A stretch of 48,442 bases of DNA, from positions 1 to 48,442 of the forward strand of contig JANYBS010000001.1 of NCBI GenBank assembly GCA_025360715.1, written 5' to 3'. The translations under genes were made by a program, and so were the position numbers. Within the stretch, counting starts at the first letter, position 1; each line of letters opens with the position of its first letter. Below, one piece after another: positions 15,566 through 22,490 of the stretch. The notes beneath the pieces were generated by a model. The model was not told the origin of the DNA. It was given only the letters and a program-made list of their open reading frames with translations, and searched no databases. This DNA comes from Candidatus Eiseniibacteriota bacterium (lineage in GTDB: Bacteria > Eisenbacteria > RBG-16-71-46).

Positions 15566-16585
15566 TCAGACGCGCCGCGCGACCACACGATACGCTCGGG
15601 CGAAGCGAAAGCTCGGCACTTGGCGCAACGCGACGTTCGCCAGATGCACGAGATCGTTCTTCGCGCCGCCGTAGTGCGGCAGGGCGTAAGCGCGAAAGCC
15701 GCGCCGCTCGAGCATGCTGCACAGCTCGCGCGGATCGAACAGGCGCTCGAGCCAGTAGCCCCACACGGGCTCGCGTGGGCAGTCGCCGCGGCGGTAGGGC
15801 GACGCGGGCGCGGGCCCGGCATTGCCAAGATACGCGCCGACCTCGCGCACGATGCGCGCGGCATCGTAGCCGCTCGTGACGGCGGCCAACTCCACGACCT
15901 GCGCCTGCGCCAGGTGCGGGAACGCCGCGCGCAGCAAGCGCTGGCGGCGCGATACCATGGGCTCGGGGATCTCGTGGTCGCCCAACTTGCCGGTGGGGCC
16001 GGCCTCAAGGCGCTGCCAGAGTGTTTCGGTCTGCTGGCGGATTCGCGGATTCGCGCCATTGTTGCCGTCGGAGATCACGACGAAGCCGCCCGGCCGTAGC
16101 ACGCGCGCGCACTCATCGAAGAAGCGCCCCACATCGTAGTAGTGCGAGATCGCCTCGATCGACAACACCACGTCGGCACTTGCGGATGCGATCGGCAGCG
16201 AACTCACATCGGTTCGCACCGGATGCACGCGGTCGCGGAGTGCGCCGAAGTGCGCATCGAGCACCTTGCGGTGCGATTCGACCATGGGCGTGTGCACCTC
16301 GGTGGCCCACACGCGCCGGGCGCCCCAGCTGGCGAGCAGGTTCGAGACCATGCCGAATCCCGAGCCGGCGTCGACGACCACCCGATCGCGCGCGCCGCCG
16401 ATGAGTGCGAGCAGCTGTGCTTTGGCGCGCACCCACGTCTGGTAGCCGCGGTCGTCGAGCAAGTCGCCGTGATAGCCGTGGAACCATGGGTCCACGCCGG
16501 CGGGAGGGCGGGTTAGCGCGGTGCGAGCCGCGGTCTGGAACTCACCCGGTGACAGCGGTGCTTCGAGCAGTGTGGCGGCGGCCAT
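15566..16585 (-). CDS. Class I SAM-dependent methyltransferase, first gene of the minus-strand run
   Basis: This protein of about 339 residues has the SAM motif VVVDAGSGFGMVSNLL, an acidic residue at strand two (VWATEVHTPM), and VVLSIEAISHYYDVGRFF after motif I. These match the Methyltransf_11/25-like fold. The C-terminal 150 residues are less conserved and probably bind the acceptor. It likely methylates a sugar of the polysaccharide. ATG 16585 is preferred over an upstream in-frame start at 16624, because GAGG lies about 8 bases before it and the extra residues look non-coding. It heads the long leftward gene run and faces the divergent GT2 gene across 152 bp. Confidence 0.88.
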   Translation of the reverse strand: MAAATLLEAPLSPGEFQTAARTALTRPPAGVDPWFHGYHGDLLDDRGYQTWVRAKAQLLALIGGARDRVVVDAGSGFGMVSNLLASWGARRVWATEVHTPMVESHRKVLDAHFGALRDRVHPVRTDVSSLPIASASADVVLSIEAISHYYDVGRFFDECARVLRPGGFVVISDGNNGANPRIRQQTETLWQRLEAGPTGKLGDHEIPEPMVSRRQRLLRAAFPHLAQAQVVELAAVTSGYDAARIVREVGAYLGNAGPAPASPYRRGDCPREPVWGYWLERLFDPRELCSMLERRGFRAYALPHYGGAKNDLVHLANVALRQVPSFRFARAYRVVARRV

Positions 16586-16737: not shown

Positions 16738-17508
16738 ATGCCCGCCGCTCATGCCCCCCACACGTTCGACCCCTCCGCCTCGAGTATCGCCCGGATCGAT
16801 CCCGCCCAGGTCGCGGTGATCGTTCCTGCCTGGAACGAGCGCGGGAAGATCGGCGAGGTCGTCCGCAAGGTCCCGCGCCGCTGGGCCAGCGCCGTCATCG
16901 TGGTCGACGACCACTCCAGTGATGGCACGGAAGCCGAGGCCCGGGAGGCCGGCGCCGAGGTCGTGATCCGCCACGAGGTCAACCAGGGCGTCGGCGCCGG
17001 CATCCGCACCGGGCTGCTCGAGGCCAAGCGCCGCGGCTTCACGTACGCGGCGATCCTCTCGGGTGACGACCAGCACGAACCCGACGAACTACCCCGGATC
17101 CTGGCGCCGCTCTTCGAAGGGCGCGCCGATATGGTCCAGGGCAGCCGCTGGCTTGCCGGGGGCGCGACGCCGGGCATCCCCACCGAGCGCCGCTGGCTCA
17201 CGCAGCTCTACCCGCTGCTCTTTCGCTTGGCCAGCGGTTTCCCGGTGACCGACGGCACGAACGGCATGCGCGCATTCCGGCTGGCGATATTGGATGACCC
17301 GCGCATCCGCTTGGAGCAGGCGTGGCTCGATCGCTACGAATTGGAGCCCTATCTGTTGTTCCAGACCGTCCGCTGCCGATACCGGCTGGAAGAAGCCCCG
17401 GTCACCGTGCGGTATCATGCCCGGGGCACCACCAAGATGAAGCTCGTGCGCGACGGTTGGCGGATCCTGAGTCCGCTCGTGCACCTGCGGCTCGGCCTGC
17501 GCCAGTAG
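16738..17508 (+). CDS. GT2 glycosyltransferase, polyprenyl-phosphate sugar synthase-like
   Basis: This 256-residue protein has VAVIVPAWNERGKIGEV, then AVIVVDDHSSDGTEAEA, and the acidic ILSGDDQHEPDEL motif of GT-A enzymes. GTNGMRAFR and a closing TTKMKLVRDGWRI segment are typical of the soluble DPM1-like family. It would transfer a hexose from a nucleotide donor to a polyprenyl phosphate or a lipid-linked intermediate. The first 20 residues are an extra low-complexity N-terminus, and the ATG at 16738 is the only early start. It opens the rightward exopolysaccharide operon; the epimerase starts 43 bp downstream. A conventional ribosome site is not evident before the ATG. Confidence 0.9.
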   Translation: MPAAHAPHTFDPSASSIARIDPAQVAVIVPAWNERGKIGEVVRKVPRRWASAVIVVDDHSSDGTEAEAREAGAEVVIRHEVNQGVGAGIRTGLLEAKRRGFTYAAILSGDDQHEPDELPRILAPLFEGRADMVQGSRWLAGGATPGIPTERRWLTQLYPLLFRLASGFPVTDGTNGMRAFRLAILDDPRIRLEQAWLDRYELEPYLLFQTVRCRYRLEEAPVTVRYHARGTTKMKLVRDGWRILSPLVHLRLGLRQ

Positions 17509-21077: not shown

Positions 21078-21518
21078 GCCGATCATGCCGGCGTCATTCC
21101 GGCGACCCCAAGCGGACGGCGGCACGGCCGATGCATGCGCGTTACGGCCCGGAAACCCTTGTCCAGAAACGACAAGACCCCGAATTTGGTCATTGAATCT
21201 GCTGTCACGTCCTTGCTAACCTTGCCTCATGGCTGTACCGCGTCAGTGAACAAACGGAGGAGACGCCGCGATCCCTTGTGAACTGGGTTTGTACACTGTA
21301 GGACGAGCCAGAACCTCGGCCGCCACGTCAGCGGCCGGAGCTCCGGAGAGATCCGGGAAACGCATCCATGGATCAGCATCTTGGTTTTCCCCCAGTCGCT
21401 CGTACTCGGTCGATCCAGTCCGCGCCTGAACGGATGATGCGGATGACTCGAGTGGTGTGAAGCCGTGGGGCAGGGCATACCCCAACGGCTTTTTGTATAC
21501 GGGTGACGACAACTGAGA
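21078..21518 (+). promoter_or_regulatory. 441-bp non-coding leader before the sugar-transferase gene
   Basis: No credible gene lies here on either strand. The stretch is less GC-rich than the genes around it and contains several inverted repeats: CGGCCGC/GCGGCCG with a 7-base loop (21317-21337), the palindrome CCGGAGCTCCGG (21335-21346), and ATCCATGGAT (21364-21373). It ends in an intrinsic terminator at 21460-21494, only 24 bases before the next ATG. A weak sigma70-like pair TTGAAT/TAACCT is at 21193-21222. The layout suggests a transcribed leader that controls read-through into the exopolysaccharide genes. I could not match it to a known riboswitch class. Confidence 0.5.
21460..21494 (+). 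terminator. Intrinsic terminator/attenuator hairpin
   Basis: AAGCCGTGGGG (21460-21470) pairs with CCCC (21480-21483) and ACGGCTT (21485-21491), with a single bulged A at 21484 and a 9-base loop. A run of five T residues follows at 21490-21494. This is the most convincing intrinsic terminator in the window. It stands about 380 bp after the previous gene and 24 bp before the sugar-transferase start, which fits attenuation better than simple operon termination. Confidence 0.75.
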
Positions 21519-22490
21519 ATGGCACCGATGGAACCCGATATCCTCTCGTCCGCAGGAGAAGCCACGGCCAACAGACCGGATTGGTCGGCTTCGGTGGAAC
21601 ATCCGGACAGGGACACCTCTGTGGAAGCCTCGACTCCGACCGGAAGCACCCGGCCGACGCCGCTACAAGCGTCCGCCGCGACCGCTTGGCCGCGACCCGC
21701 TGCGCCCACTGGGCACAATGGGACGAATGGCGCGAACGGTCATCACGCGCCGAATGGCCATGGTTATTCCAATGGCCACGCCCGTCCTCACGTCGCGCGA
21801 GCGAACTATATGAATGGCGTCCGGACCTTGTCGGCACCCGCCTCGGTCACTTCGGCGGTGCCGTTCGAGACGCCGGTGCCCACGGGCGCCTACCTTCGAT
21901 TCGGCAAGCGCGCGCTCGACCTGGTCGGCGCGTTCCTGGCACTCGTGCTCATGTCGCCGGTGATGGGGATTCTCGCGATACTCATCAAGCTCGAGTCGCG
22001 CGGCCCCGTGTTCTACCGCTCCACGCGCATCGGCAAGGGCGGCCGTGCGTTCACGTTCTACAAGCTGCGATCCATGGTGAAGGACGCCGATCGCCGCCGG
22101 GAGCAGATGCAGCACATGAACGAGGCCGATGGCCCGGTGTTCAAGATCGCGCGCGATCCCCGCGTGACGCGCATCGGCAAGTTCATCCGCACCACCAGCC
22201 TCGACGAGATCCCGCAGTTCTACAACGTCCTCATCGGTGACATGAGCCTCGTCGGGCCGCGCCCGCCGATCCCCGAGGAGGTCGCGCAGTACGAGCCTTG
22301 GCAGCTGCGGCGACTCGATGTGCGCCCCGGCATCACTTGCCTATGGCAGATCAGCGGCAGGAGCCGCATCGGCTTCCAGGAGTGGATGCGACTCGACCTC
22401 GAGTACATCCGTCACCAATCCCTTGCGCTCGACGTGAAGATCCTGCTGCGCACCTTGCCTGCGGTCCTCTCGCGCGAAGGCGCCTACTGA
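21519..22490 (+). CDS. Polyprenyl-phosphate sugar phosphotransferase (WcaJ/WbaP C-terminal type)
   Basis: The 323-residue protein primes repeat-unit synthesis by transferring a sugar-1-phosphate to undecaprenyl phosphate. One hydrophobic segment (ALDLVGAFLALVLMSPV) at about residues 132-155 is the membrane-embedded helix. The catalytic region has FYKLRSMVKDAD, then DEIPQFYNVLIGDMSLVGPRP. The chain ends with the family's WQISGRSRIGFQEWMRLDL segment. Unusually, about 115 residues precede the enzyme domain and look disordered, with repeated Asn-Gly and Asn-Gly-His units (roughly residues 67-86) instead of the CoA-binding-like domain and four helices of full-length WcaJ. A second in-frame ATG lies 9 bases downstream. 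It is the first gene after the attenuator. Confidence 0.93.
   Translation: MAPMEPDILSSAGEATANRPDWSASVEHPDRDTSVEASTPTGSTRPTPLQASAATAWPRPAAPTGHNGTNGANGHHAPNGHGYSNGHARPHVARANYMNGVRTLSAPASVTSAVPFETPVPTGAYLRFGKRALDLVGAFLALVLMSPVMGILAILIKLESRGPVFYRSTRIGKGGRAFTFYKLRSMVKDADRRREQMQHMNEADGPVFKIARDPRVTRIGKFIRTTSLDEIPQFYNVLIGDMSLVGPRPPIPEEVAQYEPWQLRRLDVRPGITCLWQISGRSRIGFQEWMRLDLEYIRHQSLALDVKILLRTLPAVLSREGAY

Follow-up and report, generated by a model that had tools for sequence, protein, structure and literature searches.

Polysaccharide operons can be governed by an RNA or by an early-transcribed element, as in the EAR, RfaH-ops (JUMPstart) and LoaP systems, and GEMM c-di-GMP riboswitches can precede polysaccharide genes and can use terminators. 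At the pgaA leader CsrA acts on both termination and translation, and it controls iraD by way of a short open reading frame (ORF) located upstream (PMC7652899). The leader analysed here precedes a sugar transferase gene in a 48,442-nucleotide stretch of DNA from a Candidatus Eiseniibacteriota bacterium (hereafter the window). It resembles the E. coli pgaABCD leader in being a long leader of a polysaccharide operon, with several recurrent GGA sites and with csrA present in the genome. It differs in that pgaABCD uses Rho termination, whereas the Eisenbacteria leader has an intrinsic-type hairpin, and its GGA motifs are candidate CsrA sites for which predictions show no preference for the unpaired state. 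As in leader-peptide attenuators of the trp, pyrBI and tnaC type, the stop of a short ORF lies beside a terminator hairpin in most relatives; unlike in those attenuators, there is no conserved peptide or regulatory codon run, and the ORF is degenerate in several genomes, including that of the window. The GEMM covariance model, in contrast, matched neither the window leader nor the leaders of the relatives, and, unlike the EAR, RfaH-ops and LoaP systems, the leader has no Rfam match and no RfaH or LoaP paralog was detected in the genome.

The proposed regulated gene (21528..22490; like all leader features below, on the forward strand) encodes a bacterial sugar transferase (PF02397, Pfam 223 bits). 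A reading of this DNA made from the sequence only had placed its start at 21519, but the start codon conserved across relatives is ATG 21528 (MEPD...). Close relatives of the protein are 56-72% identical to it, and every one is from a Candidatus Eisenbacteria assembly. Downstream of the gene lie more glycosyltransferases and a UDP-glucose/GDP-mannose dehydrogenase, and upstream, in the window's genome, an NAD epimerase/dehydratase and an MBOAT O-acyltransferase. Other genes of the window encode a GT5-type glycosyltransferase, an O-antigen-ligase-like protein and an asparagine synthase. The cluster around the leader is a surface-polysaccharide cluster. Elsewhere in the window, a tRNA gene (Rfam RF00005) occupies the contig end (48306-48379), and 122 bp of intergenic DNA (16310-16431), ~300-430 bp ahead of the gene at 16738, align at 77% with syntenic DNA of the relative G005 (E 2.7e-16); they may represent a small gene or a further conserved leader.

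All four same-genus genomes contain leader DNA, as do several others of the family, directly 5′ of the orthologous gene. An intergenic control stretch of equal length was found in only one of the four, and marginally. Two weak DNA matches outside the family (L013, L014) lacked the core. A covariance model from which the window leader had been left out gave that leader 94 bits. When 47 genomes of the phylum were searched with this model, it found a single leader in each of 15 of the 20 family genomes, directly before the sugar-transferase ortholog; these 15 are exactly the family genomes that carry the ortholog. No second site was found in the 15 carriers, and no site at all in the other five family genomes or in the remaining 27 genomes of the phylum. 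The comparative sample thus consists of 15 leaders from a single family, mostly in draft assemblies (G000 denotes the window's own genome, G001-G019 and similar labels its relatives). Rfam gave no match at gathering or permissive thresholds, the best sub-threshold hits being at chance level and on the opposite strand, and the open-access literature searched held no description of the leader RNA.

Judged by these comparisons, the ~300-base leader is an evolutionarily conserved, previously uncatalogued RNA. The sequence-only reading had proposed a possible undescribed regulatory leader at this place, which it could not match to GEMM, and had suggested a search of Rfam and of relatives for conservation and covarying stems. 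The leader proved to be conserved in 15 family genomes, its stems covary, no Rfam family reached its cut-off, and the covariance-model search agreed on GEMM. A lack of conservation or covariation, which that reading had named as refuting it, was therefore not observed. Its general idea, an undescribed leader with a probable regulatory role, stands and is joined by the evidence of conservation; the specific antiterminator that it had added did not hold up (below). As a whole, the 441 nt fold no more stably than shuffles do (z=0.02), and the last 141 nt slightly more so (z=-1.8). Conservation, not folding energy or the hairpin alone, is what exceeds chance.

A sigma-70-type promoter lies at 21193..21222 (-35 TTGAAT, 18-nt spacer, extended -10 TGC-TAACCT). 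Its pattern (TTG-type -35, N17/18, TGN-TAxxxT) is present in 15/15 relatives at equal distance from the ATG, ~320-340 bases ahead of the start codon in every leader. Because of this conservation the transcribed leader probably begins near 21229, which puts 21078-21228 outside it. The upstream part of the 441 bp formerly assigned to the leader thus precedes the predicted RNA start.

The early transcribed region contains a conserved block, GGAG...TTGTGAACTGGGTT (21256..21289). In 15/15 leaders a GGAG-type site stands ~20-26 nt upstream of xAACTGGG, with variable sequence between them; together the two resemble a bipartite element, not a standard promoter. A second promoter at GGAG-N-TTGCTAACTGGG was rejected, as most leaders have G at the sixth position of the would-be -10 hexamer. 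Within most genomes the -10 region of the promoter, TTGCTAAC (21209-21222), resembles the later block TTG(C/A)TAACTGGG (21274-21289), the two forming a direct repeat ~65 bp apart, with TTGATA in both copies in G009.

RNAalifold, unprompted, recovered the terminator hairpin and two further helices, the short helix A and the long-range LR. Covariation was evaluated with shuffled-column controls and a tree-aware null, on an alignment fitted to the model and hence biased towards it; both kinds of control favoured all three helices, the hairpin most strongly. The hairpin with its U-tract (GAAGCCGTGGGG-N9-CCCC(A)ACGGCTTTTTG) is located at 21459..21494, within one base of where it had been claimed (21460-21494), and is the sole hairpin of -12 kcal/mol or below with a following TTTTT on either strand of the 48-kb window. 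Shuffles yield 0-2 such hairpins per 48 kb, so the hairpin by itself is not beyond chance. Among the relatives 137/159 cells are paired (tree-aware P<0.001) and 14 are double-changed (P=0.009). G003, G004, G008 and G014 have a poor U-tract or none, so a role as intrinsic terminator is not universal. Promoter, leader and hairpin with U-tract before the first gene, the hallmarks of an attenuator, are all found in the window; the U-tract is incomplete in some relatives. Since the genes upstream of the leader vary between relatives, the hairpin is unlikely to be a mere terminator of a single upstream operon, and this explanation was rejected.

Helix A is formed by ACTCG (21404..21408) and CGAGT (21449..21453 in the covariance-model alignment). 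Its tree-aware P is 0.001, and in G014 CUCG:CGAG is replaced by GUCG:CGAC. In the window leader the 3′ strand follows a 9-nt tandem duplication (CGGATGATG CGGATGACT, 21430-21449), which is absent from the aligned relatives.

In LR, GUCGCUC on the 5′ side of the hairpin pairs with GGGCGAC on its 3′ side. The strands in the window are GUCGCUCG / GTCGCTCG (21395..21402) and GGGTGAC (21501..21507), the latter just 3′ of the terminator. Pairing is kept in 96% of cells (tree-aware P=0.026; double changes alone 0.18). G011 and G014 both have U-A in place of a C-G pair, each with the two strands changed, and because G014 is sister to the unchanged G005, these are probably two separate events. The comparisons give LR moderate support as a real pairing. 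A run of C (21389..21394), with counterparts in 14/15 leaders, stays unpaired in the long-range structure.

Twelve pairings were swap-tested together, each leader's own pairs being compared with between-species swaps and the p-values being uncorrected. Helix P0, in which ACTGGGTT of the block at 21256..21289 can pair with 21412-21419, is weakly supported, with p=0.02 (0.10 with one genome per genus), a value which among 12 tests is suggestive only. Pairing of ACUGGG of the same block with CCCAGU of the core was rejected: mismatches occur in several relatives, and the swap signal is missing (b2 x mid p=0.77). A candidate helix P1, mutually exclusive with LR, has as its 5′ strand GACGAGC (21302..21308), complementary to GCTCGT at 21398-21403. 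By inspection this complementarity exists in most leaders (GCGAAC:GUUCGU in G012), and no coevolution appeared in the swap test (p=0.98). The upstream strands GACGAGC and ACUGGGU could compete for the same middle region.

The antiterminator had been proposed to form between the C-rich element CCCCCAGTCGCT, which does lie at 21389-21400, and the 5′ arm of the terminator. Its own pairs were no better than between-species swaps (p=0.97), and in predicted folds of truncated transcripts the pairing was substantial only in G000, G019, G006 and G004. Across the predicted ensembles of the leaders no conserved alternative pairing that would prevent the terminator was shared.

LR may extend towards the gene by a candidate helix, H1, between CUUGGUU (21380-21386) and AACUGAG / AACYGAG (21511-21517). 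Its 5′ strand lies in CATCTTGGTT (21377..21386; CTTG kept in 14/15), and its 3′ strand in AACTGAGA (21511..21518; GAGAG/GAGAA-like in 15/15), the presumed ribosome-binding region of the sugar transferase. For H1, 89/105 cells are paired (tree-aware P=0.021), with zero pairs changed on both sides in the main alignment, and H1 alone gave no signal in the swap test (p=0.34). The duplex energy of LR and H1 combined was better for own than for swapped strands (p=0.015; one genome per genus 0.08). The combined helix is predicted at 0.99 in the window's genome; pairing of the ribosome site is predicted strongly in only 3/15 leaders (G000, G004, G005) and at ~0.4-0.5 in three others. The extension of LR may thus cover the ribosome-binding site of the sugar transferase.

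Taken together, one leader per genome before the ortholog, the conserved promoter, the covarying hairpin and helix A and the moderately supported LR suggest a family-specific cis-regulatory leader RNA of ~300 nt which controls the polysaccharide operon, a reading to which we give even chances. Most likely, such a leader would act on transcript completion and/or ribosome access. Transcription would initiate near 21229, and part of the RNA polymerase would halt at 21494. In read-through RNA, LR with CUUGGUU:AACUGAG could hide the ribosome-binding site of the sugar transferase. Expression would rise under a signal that holds the middle strand occupied, whether by upstream GACGAGC, by a factor bound there or by a ribosome, as the start site would then be accessible. 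Candidate triggers are a ligand, a CsrA-type protein and a ribosome on the short ORF.

The short ORF is also the basis of the most probable rival, attenuation by a leader ORF, in which a ribosome entering at UUG 21381 would pause at the stop by the terminator, block the 5′ arm and melt LR, turning the operon on. The ORF starts with TTG (21381..21437; 18 codons in the window). The TTG is present in 14/15 leaders, in most of them ~9 nt downstream of an AGGA-type site, and in 10/15 the frame is open for 23-24 codons and ends against the terminator. Internal stops are missing (0 vs 6.4 expected, P=0.03), and a stop triplet stands at one place beside the hairpin in 14/15, all three stop codons being used. 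In G000 and G001 the ORF ends in GGATGA, where an overlapping ATG opens a frame that leads to the same stop beside the hairpin. However, substitutions in the ORF are not protein-like (BLOSUM -0.43 vs -0.24 permuted), codon position 2 is the most variable, indels break the frame in four genomes, and the stop beside the hairpin is missing in G008. In addition, the ribosome-binding site of the window's own ORF is weak (59th percentile), and the TTG doubles as part of H1. A leader coding for a conserved peptide was rejected on the substitution pattern; the ORF may work by ribosome position rather than through its peptide, or may be incidental. On balance we regard ribosome-mediated attenuation as possible but rather improbable. 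Somewhat more doubtful is a dual-output class of leader, in which the strand that pairs in LR and with the ribosome site overlaps the UUG short ORF, and ribosome entry, or a ligand or protein bound there, would set both termination and translation.

Binding of a CsrA-type protein to GGA sites of the leader, as by CsrA at E. coli pgaABCD, would fit the detection of csrA in 18/20 family genomes, including the window's, and the recurrence of these sites: all 15 leaders have a GGAG-type site early in the leader, ~13/15 an AGGA-type site, and 14/15 a GGA in the loop of helix A. In G014 neither csrA nor the helix A GGA was detected. Predictions give the sites no higher chance of being unpaired than the background (most 0.1-0.6 vs 0.44), GGA is frequent in G+C-rich RNA generally, and G008 (82% complete) keeps the sites although csrA was not detected there. 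We consider control of the operon by such a protein unlikely. A metabolite-binding riboswitch, for which the conserved core with its unpaired bases and the possible outputs at terminator and ribosome site would speak, appears distinctly unlikely, as the leader is limited to one copy per genome, one gene and one family, no Rfam family, GEMM included, was recognised, and the variable 5′ domain has no consistent aptamer fold. The conserved promoter and the non-universal U-tract would also suit a plain promoter with an unregulated 5′ UTR, the hairpin merely limiting read-through or protecting the RNA, but this leaves the conserved core and the covarying helices up to the start codon unexplained, and we deem it quite improbable. 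Processive antitermination of the RfaH/LoaP type is unlikely, since in the window's genome (96% complete) a single NusG-domain gene was found and no paralog detected.

A family-specific regulatory leader of this kind would offer a compact, testable model, a terminator combined with a long-range helix that may extend to the start codon region. Situated at the first committed gene, it would be an entry point to the control of surface polysaccharide in an uncultured phylum.
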